Shown here one piece after another: positions 3,625-17,924 of a DNA stretch of 64,000 bases. Every line of letters begins with the position of its first letter. Position 1 is the stretch's first letter. The position numbers and the translations under genes were made by a program. The DNA is taken from positions 1 through 64,000 of the forward strand of contig SVPC01000007.1 in assembly GCA_015066095.1 (NCBI GenBank), given 5' to 3'. The DNA is from Oscillospiraceae bacterium. Its GTDB lineage: Bacteria; Bacillota; Clostridia; Oscillospirales; Acutalibacteraceae. The notes below the pieces were generated by a model. The model had not been told where the DNA came from. It saw only the letters and a list, made by a program, of their open reading frames with translations, and did not search any database.

Positions 3625-6110
3625 AATCCCAATCTCTTTGCGGCATCTTCGCGCATTTTATATTTAAGAATTTTACCTGCGGCGTTCATCGGGAAAGAAT
3701 CTACAAACTCGATATAACGCGGAACCTTGTGACGTGCCATATGGTCTGCTATGTACTGGCGCATTTCTTCTTCGGTCATACTTTCACCCTTTTTAAGGAT
3801 GATACAAGCCATAATTTCTTCGCCATAGGTTTTGTCGGGCACACCTATAACCTGTACGTCGCTTACCTTGTCGCAAGTGTAAATAAATTCTTCAATTTCT
3901 TTAGGATAAATATTTTCACCGCCGCGAATAATCATATCCTTTAAGCGTCCTGTAATACGGTAGTTGCCGTCATCATCACGACAAGCCAAGTCACCGGTAT
4001 GAAGCCAACCGTCTTTATCAATTGCTTCTGCGGTGGCTTTAGGCATTTTGTAGTACCCTTTCATTATATTATAACCGCGGGCTACAAATTCGCCATTTAC
4101 ACCATTAGGACAGTCAAGCCCTGTTTCGGGGTCTACAATCTTACACTCTACATTAGCAAAAGCACTGCCAACAGTTTCGGTACGGACTATGAGAGAATCG
4201 TAATATCTACTCATTGTACATCCTGGTGCTGCTTCGGTCTGACCGTAAACCGAAACGATTTCTTTCATATTCATATTATCAGGTTCGGTAGCCTTTTTCA
4301 TAAGGTCGGCAGGACAGTTTGCACCCGCCATAATTCCCACACGCATATGAGAAAAGTCAGTCTTTTTAAAATCTGGGTGGTTCATCATTGCGATAAACAT
4401 TGTAGGCACACCGTTAAATGCGGTAATCTTTTCGTTATGAACACACGAAAGTGATGATTTTGCCGAGAAATAAGGCATCGGACACATAGTAGCACCGTGT
4501 GTCATTGACGAAGTCATAGAAAGTACCATGCCAAAACAATGGAACATAGGTACTTGTATCATCATACGGTCGGCGGTGGAAAGTTCCATCTGGTCACCGA
4601 TGAATTTACCGTTATTCACAACATTATAGTGGGTAAGCATAACACCTTTTGGGAAGCCTGTTGTACCCGATGTATACTGCATATTACAAACATCATCTTT
4701 ATCGACAGCCGCCGCCATACGATAAACCTCTGAAACAGGTACTTCGCCCGAAAGTTCTATAGCATCTTCCCAAGTAAGGCAACCGTTTTGCTTAAAGCCC
4801 ACAGTAATAACATTACGCAAGAAAGGCAAACGCTTACTGTGAAGCGGTGAGCCCACCTTAGTATTTTGAAGTTCGGGGCAAAGCTCGGCAATAATCTGAC
4901 CATAATGACAGTCCTTTGCACCCTCGGTCATAATTAAAGTATGGGTATCTGACTGACGCAAAAGATACTCAATTTCGTGGATTTTATAAGCGGTATTTAC
5001 AGTAACCAACACTGCGCCCAATTTAACTGTAGCCCAGAATGCTATATACCATTGCGGAACATTGGAAGCCCAAACCGCAACGTGACTGCCTGCCTTTACG
5101 CCAAGCGCTATAAGAGAACGGGCAAAGGTATCTACATCATCGCGGAATTCGCTGTATGTTCTTGTATAATCAAGTGTTGTATACTTGAATGCATATTGGT
5201 CGGGGAATTCCTCTACCATACGGTCAAGTACTTGGGAAAATGTGCAATCAATAAGGCGGTCTTTTTCCCAAACATATCTGCCTGTATGTGCGCGGTTATA
5301 GTAAAGCGAATCACTTTTAGATGTGTCGCCAAACTGCTTCATAAAGTTTACGAAATGGGAGAAAATTATCTCCATATCGTCAAGTTCTTTGCACCATTCG
5401 GGTGTCCATTCGAGCGCTACAAAACCGTCGAAATTAACCGAGCGAAGACCGAGCATCATTTCCCCTATCGGCAATTCACCTTCACCGATAAGACAAAATT
5501 CGTCACCCTCTGCGGTTTTGAGTGCATCTTTAATATGAACATGCTTAACATAAGCGCCCAAATTTTTAATAGTGGTTTCAGCATCCTCACCTGCGATAAA
5601 ATAGGTGGCGTACATATCCCACAAAGCCGCCAAATTATCGTGCGCAAAACTGTCAAGCAATTCGCAAAGTTTTTTTGTATCGGCAAAAATGCCTGATGTT
5701 TCGGCAAGAATAACAATACCGTTTTCTTCCGCTTTGGGTAGAACTTTTGCTATGATTTGACGCACAAAATCATAGTTTTCTTCACCGTAAGCCTTAACCC
5801 TTACATAAGGAATATGTAAATTAGAAGCGATTTCAATACATTTTTCGATTTCACTTATAATTTCTTTCTCACTTGAAGTATCTGCCAAATTGCAAATGGT
5901 ATCAATGCAAGGAATAGACAACTTTTTTTCATAAAGTTTCCTTACCGTCTTTGCAGCAGTATAATCGTGAAACGCACCATCTTTATCAGTGAAAAGGCGG
6001 TTATGAATATTATGTAATTCTATACCTTGAAACTTTAAATCTTTTGCAATTTTACAAAAATCATCAAAAGTGCTGTTATGCCAACCTTTTGTAGAAAAAG
6101 CCAGTTTCAT
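3621..6110 (-). CDS. Sugar-isomerase TIM barrel fused to AMP-forming acyl-CoA synthetase
   Basis: An 829-residue two-domain protein. Residues 1-265 are a xylose-isomerase-like (AP endonuclease 2) TIM barrel with the usual metal-binding set: E near 137 (ILAETSG), D165 (LWDMYAT), H192 (KHVHIKD) and E234 (ALEWTPEW). Residues 285-829 are a complete ANL-family acyl/aryl-CoA synthetase: P-loop YTSGTTGFPKG (479-489), VYGQTEAAPG near 621, HTGDLACRDDDG near 704, the hinge GRLKDMIIRGGENIYP (721-736) and catalytic Lys in AAGKILKYK near 813. The ATG overlaps the stop of the LeuA-like gene (TAATG) behind a GAGGAGG site, so the fusion is genuine at sequence level with no frameshift. Both halves look catalytically competent. 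The natural substrate is unknown. Confidence 0.9.
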   Translation of the reverse strand: MKLAFSTKGWHNSTFDDFCKIAKDLKFQGIELHNIHNRLFTDKDGAFHDYTAAKTVRKLYEKKLSIPCIDTICNLADTSSEKEIISEIEKCIEIASNLHIPYVRVKAYGEENYDFVRQIIAKVLPKAEENGIVILAETSGIFADTKKLCELLDSFAHDNLAALWDMYATYFIAGEDAETTIKNLGAYVKHVHIKDALKTAEGDEFCLIGEGELPIGEMMLGLRSVNFDGFVALEWTPEWCKELDDMEIIFSHFVNFMKQFGDTSKSDSLYYNRAHTGRYVWEKDRLIDCTFSQVLDRMVEEFPDQYAFKYTTLDYTRTYSEFRDDVDTFARSLIALGVKAGSHVAVWASNVPQWYIAFWATVKLGAVLVTVNTAYKIHEIEYLLRQSDTHTLIMTEGAKDCHYGQIIAELCPELQNTKVGSPLHSKRLPFLRNVITVGFKQNGCLTWEDAIELSGEVPVSEVYRMAAAVDKDDVCNMQYTSGTTGFPKGVMLTHYNVVNNGKFIGDQMELSTADRMMIQVPMFHCFGMVLSMTSSMTHGATMCPMPYFSAKSSLSCVHNEKITAFNGVPTMFIAMMNHPDFKKTDFSHMRVGIMAGANCPADLMKKATEPDNMNMKEIVSVYGQTEAAPGCTMSRYYDSLIVRTETVGSAFANVECKIVDPETGLDCPNGVNGEFVARGYNIMKGYYKMPKATAEAIDKDGWLHTGDLACRDDDGNYRITGRLKDMIIRGGENIYPKEIEEFIYTCDKVSDVQVIGVPDKTYGEEIMACIILKKGESMTEEEMRQYIADHMARHKVPRYIEFVDSFPMNAAGKILKYKMREDAAKRLGL

Positions 6111-7480
6111 TAGTTAGCCTCCTCGTAAACAATCTTGTTTACTGCATTTATATAAGCCTTAATAGATGCGGCAATAATATCGGTCGAAATACCATTACCT
6201 GAATAAAGTTTGCCATCTTGTCTTAATTTTACAACAGCGTTACCCATAGCACCCTTACCCTCGGTAACCGACTGAATTTGAAAATCATCCAACTCATAGT
6301 GGCAACCGATAATTTGTTCAATAGCGTGGAAAGCAGCATCAATAGGGCCATCACCTGTGCTAATACCCTGTAAACTTGCACCATCTTTTTCAAGTGTTAT
6401 TTGAGCAGATGATGTGATAATATTACCGCTATTTACAACATAATTTACAAGTTTATATGTAGGTTCTACCTGCAACGCAACACTTGCAACCACAGCATCA
6501 AGTTCTTTGGCGGTAATGCGCTTTTTAGCGGCAACACGCAAAAATTCATCATAAACCTTTGCGCCGTCTTCTGTGCTTAAATCGTATCCCAACAACGAAA
6601 CCGCTTTCAAAACAGTTTCCTTATCATCATTAGCATCTAAAACAAAGCTTTCTTCCTGTGATTCAGAAATACCGATTGCGGTTTTTTGCTCTTTTGTATT
6701 ATCGTTAACCCAACCGATTTGCTTTATAATACGAGTGAGTTCGGTGAATTTAAGTGTTGATTCAAAACCATAGTTATTCCCACAATTTTTAAGGATTCCA
6801 GCAAAAGTTTCAAGCGAGGTGATGCTTCCGCCCACCGCGGTTTTAACTGTATTTACACCCTTTTGAACGGCAGTAACAGCACAAGCACAAGCCAAACCGT
6901 TACTGTCTTCACATATCACGCCAATATCTCCGTCACACTTAAACTCATCAACAAAGCCGCCAAATCCGTCAGGCATCATTTCAGCAGTAGCATCGCCGAA
7001 TGTGATAAGATTAGCACCCGATTGTTTAGCAATCTCAACCGCTTCTTTTAAAAATTCGGCTTCTGCTCTTGTAGCATCCATAGCGCAAAATTCAACATCG
7101 TCACATTTTTGCTTTGCATAAGAAACCACATCTTTAATGTGTTCAAGCATTTTTGGAGCCTTGATGTGCATTGAATATTCCATACCCACACAAGAAACGG
7201 GTACTTCCAGTCTGATTCGCGGATTTTTAGCAGTATTAAGAGCTAAAACCGCTTTTTCTACATCACTCTTTGTAACAACCGCAACCGAAATAATCCCCGA
7301 TTTAACAAATGAAGCAATTGTGCGGATAAGTAAAGCGTCTGCTTTATCATTTTCTATTTTAGGTAGTTCAACAGCGTTTACGCCTAATTTTTCAAGTTGA
7401 CGCGCAATCTCAATTTTTTCCTTAAAACCGAGAATAGCACTCTGACGACATAACGTTCTGTCTGCAATTTTAATTTTCAT
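6110..7480 (-). CDS. 2-isopropylmalate synthase-like protein with degenerate active site
   Basis: 456 residues with the LeuA architecture: an N-terminal HMGL-type TIM barrel (1-255), a linker, and a C-terminal LeuA allosteric dimer domain (340-456) with TGDGPIDAAFHAIEQIIG and DIIAASIKAYINAVNK intact. The catalytic barrel is not normal. The family motif TLRDGEQ, whose Asp binds the metal, reads TLCRQSA (9-15). The metal-binding HCHND reads ICEDS (189-193), so both His are gone. The NGIGERAGN loop is also lost. It is therefore unlikely to be a standard isopropylmalate synthase, and may have a new activity or a sensing role. The start at 7480 is chosen for its fit to the family and an AGTAGG site. 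The gene sits directly under a leucine T-box. Confidence 0.8.
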   Translation of the reverse strand: MKIKIADRTLCRQSAILGFKEKIEIARQLEKLGVNAVELPKIENDKADALLIRTIASFVKSGIISVAVVTKSDVEKAVLALNTAKNPRIRLEVPVSCVGMEYSMHIKAPKMLEHIKDVVSYAKQKCDDVEFCAMDATRAEAEFLKEAVEIAKQSGANLITFGDATAEMMPDGFGGFVDEFKCDGDIGVICEDSNGLACACAVTAVQKGVNTVKTAVGGSITSLETFAGILKNCGNNYGFESTLKFTELTRIIKQIGWVNDNTKEQKTAIGISESQEESFVLDANDDKETVLKAVSLLGYDLSTEDGAKVYDEFLRVAAKKRITAKELDAVVASVALQVEPTYKLVNYVVNSGNIITSSAQITLEKDGASLQGISTGDGPIDAAFHAIEQIIGCHYELDDFQIQSVTEGKGAMGNAVVKLRQDGKLYSGNGISTDIIAASIKAYINAVNKIVYEEAN

Positions 7481-7502
7481 AAAAATACCTACTTTCTTCA
7501 TT

Positions 7503-7768
7503 AAAAAATCCCTGAGAATGTAAAACACTCTCAGGGACGAATAGTTTATTCGCGGTACCACCCTGTTTACCATAAAAACGGTCACTCATTAAGGCTCTGA
7601 CAAGCCCTGCGCCATGATAACGGTGCGTGCCGTAGCAACTTACTTTATTTCAGCCACTCTGCTCAGGAATGAGACTTGTTTTAACCTTAGTGTACCGCAC
7701 TTGCACCAAACGGCGGCTCTCTGAACACCGAAATTAAACAATAATTCCGTCAACGCATTTAACATTTT
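7503..7768 (-). promoter_or_regulatory. T-box riboswitch, leucine type (specifier CTC)
   Basis: A tRNA-sensing leader upstream of the LeuA-like gene. On the minus strand it contains the AGAGAG motif of stem I, the distal loop GTTTGGTGCAAG, and the specifier CTC at 7673-7671 next to TTCC, which pairs with GGAA at the stem base. The hallmark T-box AGGGTGGTACCGCG is at 7564-7551. A terminator stem (7536-7510) and T-run follow. CTC is a leucine codon, so uncharged tRNA-Leu should allow readthrough into the whole five-gene operon down to metA. The specifier assignment rests on manual alignment to the leader pattern. Confidence 0.93.
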
Positions 7769-15465: not shown

Positions 15466-16776
15466 ATGTCAACAAAAATTAAAGAAAAGTTCACTTATGG
15501 TTATAATAGTGAGCAGTTTAAAAAATTCAAAAAGTACGCTTGGCTTATGCTTTTAAGCTTTGGCTTCACTTACTTGTTCTTCTACAACGGCCGTCAGAAT
15601 ATAAACTTGGTTATGCCTCTTATGCAAGAAGCATTTGAGTCTGACTTTGGTACTCTCGGCGTTGTTTCTTCCGCACTTTTCTGGTGCTATGCATTTGGCC
15701 AGTTAGTAAGTGGCCGTCTAGGCGCTTTCTTCGGTTATAAGAAATTGATGATTTTTGGTGTTGTTGCTTCTGCTATACTCAACGTTGCAATTTCTTTCCA
15801 ACACAACCTTGTAGTTATCGCTATCCTTTGGGGTCTTAACGGCTTCTGCCAAGCAATGGTTTGGTCCAATGGTGTTGGTGTTATCAACAAATGGTGGCCC
15901 AAAGAAAAGCGCGGCTTTGCTTCAGGTCTTGCAACTGCTTTCTCTGGCGTTGCGCAGGCAGTTACATATCTCACCGTAAACTGGTGTTTGATTCTTAATC
16001 CTGAATGGGGTTGGCGTGCAGGTTTCCGTTACCCCATCATACCAATGGTAGTTATTCTTATCGCATTCATCTTGTTCTTTAAAACCAAACCCGAAGATGT
16101 TGGTCTTCCCGCTTTTGAAGAAGCAGATGCCGCTCTCGACGACAAGGATGCTGCTATGGAAGCTAAAATCAAGGAAAAAGGCTTCTTTTATCCTTACAAA
16201 CTTCTTTTCAGCGAACCCAAAGTTCTCGTTTTCTGCTTGATTTCTGCAATTGCAGGTATTGGTCGTTACGGACTTCTCACTTGGATACCTACTTACTTTA
16301 CTGAATCTTTGGGTCTTACACTCAAAAATGATATGTTCACATACATTGTTTTACCTTTGGGTCAGGCTTGCGCTATGTTCGTGTTCCCATTCATTACCGA
16401 TAAAGTATTTAAAGGCAAACGCGAACCTATGCTTGTTTTGGCTTCTATCGTTGCTTGCGTAGGTCTTGTATGCTTCCCATTCTTTAAAACACAGCTTCCT
16501 GCTACAATAATGCTCTTTGTTGTGGGCGTTTTTTCAATGGTAACAGGTGTTATCTGGGCAATCGCCGGTGATATGGGTGGCCGCGCACTTTCTTCTACCG
16601 TTGTTGGTGTTCTTGACTGGGCTGTATATATGGGTGCCGCTATTCAGGCTTCTGTATTTGGCTTCGTTAAAGAAGAATTTGGCTGGCCTGCAATATTCAT
16701 CACAATCGGTTGTCTTTACATCATCTTACTTGTTCTCACCCTTTTAGCACGTAAGATGAAAATGAAGAAACTTTAA
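15466..16776 (+). CDS. MFS transporter, organophosphate:phosphate antiporter family
   Basis: A 436-residue, about 12-helix major facilitator. The N-terminus (TYLFFYNGRQNINLVMPLM) is typical of the OPA subfamily (GlpT, UhpT, PgtP), with a conserved Arg in helix 1. The central segment WSNGVGVINKWWPKEKRG carries the family pattern W..P..RG. The likely cargo is a phosphorylated small molecule such as glycerol phosphate, a sugar phosphate or a phospho-amino-alcohol. It follows the LicC-like gene in one transcription unit (AAGGAGT site) and ends at a strong terminator, so imported organophosphate may be activated directly by the nucleotidyltransferase. Confidence 0.88.
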   Translation: MSTKIKEKFTYGYNSEQFKKFKKYAWLMLLSFGFTYLFFYNGRQNINLVMPLMQEAFESDFGTLGVVSSALFWCYAFGQLVSGRLGAFFGYKKLMIFGVVASAILNVAISFQHNLVVIAILWGLNGFCQAMVWSNGVGVINKWWPKEKRGFASGLATAFSGVAQAVTYLTVNWCLILNPEWGWRAGFRYPIIPMVVILIAFILFFKTKPEDVGLPAFEEADAALDDKDAAMEAKIKEKGFFYPYKLLFSEPKVLVFCLISAIAGIGRYGLLTWIPTYFTESLGLTLKNDMFTYIVLPLGQACAMFVFPFITDKVFKGKREPMLVLASIVACVGLVCFPFFKTQLPATIMLFVVGVFSMVTGVIWAIAGDMGGRALSSTVVGVLDWAVYMGAAIQASVFGFVKEEFGWPAIFITIGCLYIILLVLTLLARKMKMKKL

Positions 16777-16810
16777 TAAAGACAGTATGTCTTAAAACAT
16801 TTCCTTAATA

Positions 16811-16842
16811 AAAACGGCTTGGATTAAATCCAAGCCGTTTTA
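16811..16842 (+). terminator. Terminator after the OPA transporter
   Basis: A 14-bp nearly perfect stem with a tiny loop (16811-16840) and a short T-run closes the LicC-like/transporter operon. Confidence 0.9.
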
Positions 16843-16856
16843 GTATATAATCACAT

Positions 16857-17078
16857 AATTATTACAGTAATTATATCGATATTTTTGCTTCGCGAAATCG
16901 ATATATTTTCTTTCAAAAATTCGATATGTTTGTAATACAAACTCGATATGATATAAATACCTATTGCTCGTGCCTTTGGCACATATCGAGCCGTAAGGCT
17001 TATCGAGATTTATCAAAATCATATCGAAAATTCCTTTAGGAATTTATATCGTTGTAATGCGTTTTAAAACGCATTACA
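16857..17078. repeat. Hairpin array with nested linkers (array A)
   Basis: The 302 bp between the OPA transporter and uxuB hold a terminator and this array. Seven short hairpins are joined by a 7-bp linker. On the left the linker reads TCGATAT (16898, 16921, 16943; the first copy at 16873 is ATATCGAT). On the right it reads ATATCGA (16983, TTATCGA at 17000, 17021, ATATCG at 17046). The two sets are reverse complements and pair in nested order: four left with four right, three hairpins on each side, and a central GTGCC-TTT-GGCAC at 16970-16982. The array ends with a 26-bp perfect palindrome (17053-17078) that abuts the uxuB stop codon. No open reading frame is supported here. Confidence 0.85.
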
Positions 17079-17924
17079 CTACACACCCGAATATGCCGCA
17101 AAACCGCAATCTATTGGAAGCACTACGCCTGTAATAGCCGAAGCACAACCCTCGTCGCAAAGGAACAAGGTAGCACCAAGTAATTCTTCTGCATCTACAA
17201 ATCGGTTTGTAGGTGTGCCGCCGAGGATTTTTGCCGAGCGAGCGGTTGGTGTGCCGTCCTCATTAAAGAGAAGCGCCTTGTTTTGAGCCGATACCAAAAA
17301 TCCGGGAGCGATAGCATTACAGCGTATGCCTGTACCTGCAAAGTGGGTTGCAAGCCACTGAGTAAAGTTGGAAATACCCGCCTTTGCCGCCGAGTATGCA
17401 GGGATTTTGGTGAGCGGTGTATACGCGTTCATAGAAGAAACGTTTAATATGCAACCACTCTTAGCGTCTGCCATATCACGCGCAAAAACCTGTGTAGGAA
17501 GCAAAGTTCCTTGGAAATTGAGTTTGAACACAAAATCAACACCCGAAGCTTCTAAATCGAAGAAAGACTTTCCGCCCTCCTTTGCCTCGTGATGATATTC
17601 GTTATCGGTAGTAGCACGCGGATTGTTACCACCGGCACCATTAACCAATATATCACATTTACCAAGGTCGCGTAGCACCGCTTCGCGCACTTCTTCAAGT
17701 GAATCTTTTTCAAGAACATTTGCCTTGAAGCCTTCACAGATAAAGCCCTCGTCTTTTAATTCTTGGGCAAGTTTTTTAACAGCTTCTTCGTTAAGGTCCA
17801 AAGCTGCAACCTTTGCGCCGCATTGAGCAAATGCACGTGCCATAGCGCCGCATATAAGTCCGCCGGCACCCGTTACCACAACAACCTTGCCGCTATAATC
17901 TAAATTTAATGGAAGTTTTATCAT
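17079..17924 (-). CDS. uxuB: D-mannonate oxidoreductase (fructuronate reductase), SDR type
   Basis: A 281-residue short-chain dehydrogenase. It has the NAD(P)-binding TGAGGLICGAMA at residue 19, the NGAGG turn near 94, and the catalytic Ser-Tyr-Lys set (NVSSMNAY, then PAYSAAKAG). The SDR-type UxuB (YjmF of Bacillus) reduces D-fructuronate to D-mannonate in hexuronate breakdown. The assignment rests mainly on its 4-bp overlap (ATGA) with uxuA, which makes the next step. By itself the sequence only says SDR. Confidence 0.88.
   Translation of the reverse strand: MIKLPLNLDYSGKVVVVTGAGGLICGAMARAFAQCGAKVAALDLNEEAVKKLAQELKDEGFICEGFKANVLEKDSLEEVREAVLRDLGKCDILVNGAGGNNPRATTDNEYHHEAKEGGKSFFDLEASGVDFVFKLNFQGTLLPTQVFARDMADAKSGCILNVSSMNAYTPLTKIPAYSAAKAGISNFTQWLATHFAGTGIRCNAIAPGFLVSAQNKALLFNEDGTPTARSAKILGGTPTNRFVDAEELLGATLFLCDEGCASAITGVVLPIDCGFAAYSGV

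Follow-up and report, generated by a model that had tools for sequence, protein, structure and literature searches.

In organisation, the closest analogy to the feature analysed here is given by the REP/BIME repeats with their RAYT gene (REP-associated tyrosine transposase), extragenic palindromes that flank the gene and coevolve with it (PMC2817692, in the part available). Our feature lies at positions 16876-17078 of the window, by which we mean the whole stretch of 64,000 nucleotides analysed, and it differs in that its partner is not a known nuclease and in being a nested ladder of two halves. The intervening sequence (IVS) of 23S rRNA, with its S23p ORF, has been called selfish; in Coxiella it sits in helix 45 of 23S rRNA and its leader has tandem heptamers (as given in the accessible portion of PMC4990558). 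The protein family PF05635 is common to the IVS ORF and the partner gene of the ladder, whereas the window ladder is found between protein genes and not inside 23S rRNA (Rfam gave no rRNA match in the window), and the Coxiella heptamers do not form a ladder. Gut-1 RNA (RF01706) has been recorded only from the human gut and is placed among noncoding RNAs without a link to an mRNA (PMC2864571, in the excerpt at hand). Its consensus of three linker-hairpin units and a last linker, with UGAAAU linkers, equals half of a ladder of the TGAAAT class described below, but the model has no inverted second half and leaves the window copy unmatched, with no match at the gathering level (50 bits) and none at E up to 5 for 16780-17120. 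It does match L266, L269 and L273 among the 15 chosen loci searched.

The Avd protein of diversity-generating retroelements (DGRs) is a four-helix bundle, and a hairpin or cruciform target together with such a protein recalls our hairpin ladder with its helix-bundle gene. The DGR target needs a DNA hairpin or cruciform with a GRNA loop, of which the structure and not the stem sequence matters, and group IIC introns often lie a short way behind terminator hairpins (both from the available part of PMC3240598). Some ladders share this placement behind terminators, although ladder plus gene measure about 0.7 kb, and no intron family matched at the 15 loci. Within the literature searched, in the parts available, the whole two-half ladder was not found, and the accessible text of PMC8040213 names neither Gut-1 nor four-helix proteins under the terms used. 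The initial annotation, made from the letters of the window, knew of no described element with this layout; this stands for the whole ladder but is not fully right, because Rfam already lists one half of a sister class as Gut-1 RNA. A known repeat model covering the full length was looked for in Rfam and discarded, no family matching the window ladder. By the membership tests run on it, which covered Gut-1 RNA, REP/RAYT, the 23S rRNA IVS, MITE target duplications and intrinsic terminators, the window copy belongs to none of these groups.

The reading we prefer, with a probability of roughly 0.68, is that the window feature belongs to a selfish DNA element of two parts, as a copy without the gene. 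One part would be the ladder, made of short linkers with a hairpin behind each, followed by the same linkers inverted; the other, if present, would be a small S23p/PF05635 gene of the four-helix-bundle family, starting a short way after the ladder and lying on the other strand from window +.

The ladder in the window and its fold

The window ladder sits between two protein genes and has no helix-bundle gene beside it. It has eight hairpins, and of its eight linkers of the CGATAT type four are direct and four inverted; a hairpin stands behind each linker and one is at the centre. The four left linkers, the four inverted right linkers and the hairpins between them lie where the initial annotation had placed them.

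15466-16776, + strand: flanking gene, MFS transporter (context only)
16811-16841, + strand: palindrome behind the MFS gene, with 15-bp arms; also in G043, there with a different sequence after it
16876-16882, + strand: left linker L1, TCGATAT (linker match, family alignment)
16883-16897, + strand: hairpin 1 (family alignment, fold)
16898-16904, + strand: left linker L2, TCGATAT (linker match, family alignment)
16905-16920, + strand: hairpin 2 (family alignment, fold)
16921-16927, + strand: left linker L3, TCGATAT (linker match, family alignment)
16928-16942, + strand: hairpin 3 (family alignment, fold)
16943-16949, + strand: left linker L4, TCGATAT (linker match, family alignment)
16950-16961, + strand: central segment GATATAAATACC, which across the family is able to form an alternative fold with R1 and the 3' arm of hairpin 7
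16970-16982, + strand: hairpin 4, at the centre (fold)
16983-16989, + strand: right linker R4, ATATCGA (linker match, family alignment)
16990-16999, + strand: hairpin 5 (family alignment, fold)
17000-17006, + strand: right linker R3, TTATCGA (family alignment)
17007-17020, + strand: hairpin 6 (family alignment, fold)
17021-17027, + strand: right linker R2, ATATCGA (linker match, family alignment)
17028-17045, + strand: hairpin 7 (family alignment, fold)
17046-17052, + strand: right linker R1, ATATCGT (family alignment)
17053-17078, + strand: hairpin 8, terminal, 11 bp in the predicted fold, abutting the end of the minus-strand gene
17079-17924, - strand: flanking gene, short-chain dehydrogenase (context only)

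Two details of the annotation needed adjustment. Its first linker, ATATCGAT, overlaps the TCGATAT at 16876-16882 within a palindrome, and we take this TCGATAT as L1; its seven hairpins are all present, but the eighth, terminal one also falls inside its range. Of the 16 ATATCGA motifs in the 64 kb, where 7.3 would be expected, seven fall at 16873-17027. The window element does not score as an intrinsic terminator: a consensus scan (a GC-containing hairpin, then a T run) gave no terminator-like site on either strand at 16780-17120 and no terminator score for the palindrome at 16811-16841, and no sigma-70-like promoter was found by consensus scan at 16780-17120.

The check by RNA and single-stranded DNA folding that had been suggested gave energies below those of all 200 shuffles in both cases, 6.75 sd below them for RNA and 8.57 sd for DNA (0/200 as low in each). 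The nested stem proposed for the whole stretch is, at -41.5 kcal/mol, almost optimal as DNA (optimum -42.2, 0.7 below); as RNA it is not the optimum, reaching -53.6 kcal/mol, 4.6 above the best fold at -58.2. In the alternative pairing, 16950-16961 joins the 3' arm of hairpin 7, with one mismatch in the window copy. A chance origin of the ladder is rejected by the shuffle energies, the linker excess and the pairing kept across copies.

Recurrence and covariation

The layout recurs and is not a one-off. The genome of the window holds two further ladder copies, C9 and C26; a similarity search found a ladder match in 21 of 99 genomes, this one included, and a core scan of named genomes gave at least 117 ladder-core stretches in gut Clostridia. 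Core conservation is partly ascertained because the scan requires the core, but the similarity matches in the 99-genome set show it without that requirement. The 80 matches with titles come from MAGs of Clostridia, Clostridiales, Oscillospiraceae or Ruminococcus, and 60 of them, among the matches listed, name a ruminant gut sample. The phage collection contained no ladder match, and four stretches matching the ladder were found in viral contigs. We parsed 98 copies, of which 77 were kept by a stem-score limit and 64 were non-redundant and complete. All copies kept run in the order L1-hp1-L2-hp2-L3-hp3-L4-GATATAAA-hp4-R4-hp5-R3-hp6-R2-hp7-R1, which the parsing imposes, and other copies are without some modules or have extra ones. 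At L093 three ladder cores stand in series and at L070 two ladders are 394 bp apart. A left flank near ATCAGTGAACGATTTAGATGCCA recurs beside the ladders of L027, L058, L073, L085, L102, L106 and L149, in named genomes and G076.

Pairing is kept while sequence changes. Across the 64 non-redundant complete copies, a set in which the stem-score limit favours well-paired copies, hairpins 1-3 and 5-7 together have 2003 stem cells, of which 1844 are Watson-Crick pairs, and single stem positions show several Watson-Crick pair types; the observation that stems differ while linkers are constant extends from the window to these copies. Covariation also links hairpin 7 to the central segment: in 62 copies, 219 of 248 positions are complementary, compared with 163 ± 5.4 after shuffling, so that the alternative pairing does exist. 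As for the nested order 1-8, 2-7, 3-6, 4-5 that had been read from the linkers, their first base pairs best in this order among all 24 orders, although the support within the CGATAT class is modest (101 against 93.7 ± 3.1, with 81 of 5000 shuffles as high). Taken together, the interpretation of a real and recurrent layout whose fold appears to be under selection is supported, and such an element would be evidence that nested DNA folds are selected in several genera.

The helix-bundle gene and the linker classes

The window copy stands without a gene; elsewhere the element is often tied to one that could not be seen from the window, the ladder lying at many loci directly upstream of a four-helix-bundle gene of PF05635 ('23S rRNA intervening sequence protein'). 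When 425 flanking reading frames were clustered, the largest cluster (n=9) was this protein, seven of its members being the first frame left of the ladder and transcribed away from it, and the remaining two being one site fetched twice, 1.5 kb from the ladder. The first 70 residues of the L080 gene match PF05635 at 44.1 bits, above the Pfam cut-off of 33.8, which places it in the family, and the nearest solved structure to the L090 protein is 2rld (E 4.2e-21). A motif search using a slightly looser core pattern found the helix-bundle gene on the same side and strand at 12 loci, 11 of them within L049-L169, a set with 125 core matches; most ladders there are therefore without a helix-bundle gene beside them.

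Seen from the gene, 3-9 CGATAT linkers occupy the 330 bp upstream of 14 of the 16 nearest homologues of the query (56-82% identity); in L259 and L262 these come from one half only, and L263 and L264 carry different linkers. The distance between ladder end and start codon in the CGATAT class is 14-97 bp, at most 26 bp in 17 of 21. Some units carry a second, partial ladder behind the gene, and the L262 gene lies between two halves. More distant PF05635 genes have ladders of like architecture with other linkers (TGAAAT, GATGAAATC, AATGATG, GTGATG, GTGATAT and ATGAATTG), and across these non-CGATAT ladders the linker changes on both sides together. With a detector that demands inverted linkers, and with shuffles and other windows as controls, an any-linker ladder scoring at least 5 was found in 34 of 57 upstream regions compared with 0/570 shuffles and 2/261 control windows; such ladders are present at 24 of the 30 loci picked because their protein resembles a ladder-linked one and at 10 of the 27 picked by family alone. 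In an enlarged set, 72 of 107 upstream regions have a ladder at this score and no ladder was found upstream of the other 35 genes (32 at score 4). Outside this class of the phylum, none of the 13 PF05635 genes located (of 30 loci) reaches a ladder score of 5. At least four loci from those other classes (L297, L299, L300 and L302) have, at the ladder's place upstream of PF05635 genes, short direct repeats such as GGAGTCAGGAGACA, comparable to the Coxiella heptamers (PMC4990558, available part).

Linker type is inherited with protein type. On a protein tree of 75 rows, 71 of them labelled with nine linker classes, the linker changes 11 times, against 44.1 for shuffled labels (0/200 as low). From this co-inheritance we infer recognition of the linker by the protein; joint travel of ladder and gene would also cluster linker types on the tree, without any recognition. 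Matching linker and protein classes would provide a directly testable substrate for helix-bundle proteins, the pairing of ladder and gene may help explain the spread of these small genes, and the Gut-1 'RNA' of Rfam gains a new context as half of an apparent DNA structure. The genome of the window has no CGATAT-class gene; it has two PF05635 genes, with 47% and 40% identity to the query, whose ladders carry AATGATG and GTATGT linkers and follow tRNA genes.

Siting, movement and competing explanations

The neighbourhood of terminators is preferred. With a purpose-made detector, a terminator-like hairpin was found within 16 nt before the ladder start in 22 of 71 gene-bearing ladders against 1/195, and seven of 109 copies (0/325 in the comparison) lie inside an interrupted inverted repeat with a score of at least 11, six of these seven also showing a terminator's A and T runs. 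Near-identical copies occupy separate loci, one pair in G026 (179/180) and three pairs in G099 (195-198/202). The ladder start or the preceding hairpin is repeated behind the gene over at least 16 nt in 9 of 69 cases compared with 1/682, one of the nine being inverted and one a tRNA-like stretch. At L269 a second copy of the terminator follows the gene, and its loop is inverted (GAAA against TTTC), as though the other strand had served as template.

Empty sites in relatives had been suggested as a way to reveal mobility. The dispersed near-identical copies and the interrupted palindromes support mobility, but the window copy is without a clean empty site, its flanking genes having different neighbours in the relatives examined. 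The C9 copy has no clean empty site either, its right flank matches nothing elsewhere, and no ladder follows in the next 200 bp of the eight orthologous gene ends compared. In the genomes compared no movement of the ladder was seen. Empty sites are found at the positions of L238 and L247 when G099 is set against G051 and G026 against G015, G102 and G051; there the relatives are without a composite of about 480-510 bp of which the ladder is only one part, so that another element may have carried the ladder. The composite (in L238, L246-L248, L376 and L378, of G026, G099 and G100) has ends like TTTAAATTATAGTTTGTCG and CGATAAACCCCAATTTA, which look like inverted repeats, and exchangeable contents, either a ladder or other hairpin repeats. 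The short direct target duplication expected of a MITE is not general (5/114 against 8/567 at score 11). At C9 some 20 bp, made up of a terminator arm and the bases upstream of it, are imperfectly repeated on the two flanks, a single case that carries no weight because the test over 114 copies was negative.

One alternative would make the ladder a structured RNA, acting on its own as a small RNA or else forming the mRNA leader of the helix-bundle gene; the Rfam entry for Gut-1 supposes as much for the sister half-ladder. The Gut-1 matches at three of 15 loci and the RNA folding energy speak for it, and the ladder is close enough to the start codon in the CGATAT class that it could be transcribed. 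The wobble pairs of that class (G-U 19 and A-C 24 of 2003 cells) are uneven between halves, with G-U 14 and A-C 7 on the right and G-U 5 and A-C 17 on the left; the 3' half of each strand therefore tolerates G-U or G-T more, a pattern that RNA could also give. Against RNA, however, G-U makes up only about 1% of stem cells, and across all classes, with a scoring that favours G-U, it amounts to 18 of 1584 (A-C 5). In the right half of the window strand, GNA accounts for 44 of 66 triloops and GNNA for 58 of 90 tetraloops, just 25 of these 58 being GNRA, while the left half has none; the opposite strand mirrors this in its own 3' half (GNA 32/62, GNNA 21/44), so these loops belong to the 3' half of either strand. 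The loop-closing pair of the C-GNA-G and C-GNNA-G types is C-G in 92 of 102 on the window strand and 45 of 53 on the opposite one. GNA and GNNA loops are very stable in DNA, and stem pairs and loop types together favour folded DNA rather than RNA. The ladders starting right behind a terminator (22/71) also argue against transcription into RNA, as does the absence of a sigma-70-like promoter, by consensus scan, at 16780-17120 of the window. Where ladder and gene are 40 bp or more apart, the gap contains a -10-like box in 31 of 36 units, but a promoter there was set aside as weak, since 66% of shuffles also show the box. Overall we consider the RNA explanation quite unlikely.

Somewhat less improbable, yet still unlikely, is the view that a transposase, Y1 or another, moves the ladder as a REP/BIME-like or MITE-like repeat and that the helix-bundle gene is a passenger. 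Ladders are dispersed, palindromic and extragenic, those of G026 and G099 lie inside the composite just described, and Y1 genes are found in 17 of 21 ladder-bearing genomes compared with 43 of 78 others. Among the places listed, though, none of the Y1 genes of these 60 genomes (of 99) stands beside a ladder, the only shared contig being in G024 at a distance of about 84 kb. Stems vary and linkers stay constant, where a REP would conserve the palindrome sequence; the linker type tracks the helix-bundle protein, and target duplications are not general. The remaining alternative, functionless palindromes kept by replication template switching and unit duplication, could draw on the near-perfect stems, the gain and loss of hairpin-linker modules, the fused or neighbouring copies (L093, L070) and the inverted loop of the repeat at L269. 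Drift of this kind would not be expected to produce the linker order, the central inversion and the covarying central segment, nor loop types that differ between the halves and co-inheritance with a single protein family. PF05635 genes are present in 20 of the 21 genomes with a ladder match and in 49 of the other 78; we regard this alternative as very improbable.

The two-part selfish element remains our preferred reading. In it the ladder would fold as single-stranded or cruciform DNA, the helix-bundle protein, a pentamer in a relative, would recognise the linkers of its own class, and an enzyme from elsewhere would copy ladder and gene into or behind terminator-like hairpins. Gene-less ladders would come from gene loss or from spread in trans. 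Against it count the lack of observed movement and of clean empty sites, the composite inserts, the absence of general target duplications, the PF05635 genes without a ladder, the modest support for nested linker pairing and the uneven wobble pairs; in addition, the genome of the window has no gene of the CGATAT class, and Y1 transposases, too, are commoner in ladder-bearing genomes. A bolder version, which we hold only tentatively and think somewhat doubtful, is a new class of mobile element working on folded DNA. Here a ring of four-helix-bundle proteins, without a known catalytic motif, would read class-specific linkers on the hairpin ladder and insert it into or behind hairpins such as terminators, and classes would diverge by a linker swap on both halves together with the protein. 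If true, the long-unexplained intervening sequences of 23S rRNA and Gut-1 RNA would be offshoots of the same system.

Two minor observations may be added. A T-box leader (110 bits) lies at 7530-7762 of the window on the minus strand, upstream of a minus-strand frame at 6110-7585. At G030:C34:30639-30861, next to a ladder match, 32 residues of the helix-bundle query of the CGATAT class find a match in a fragment that is perhaps a decaying unit.
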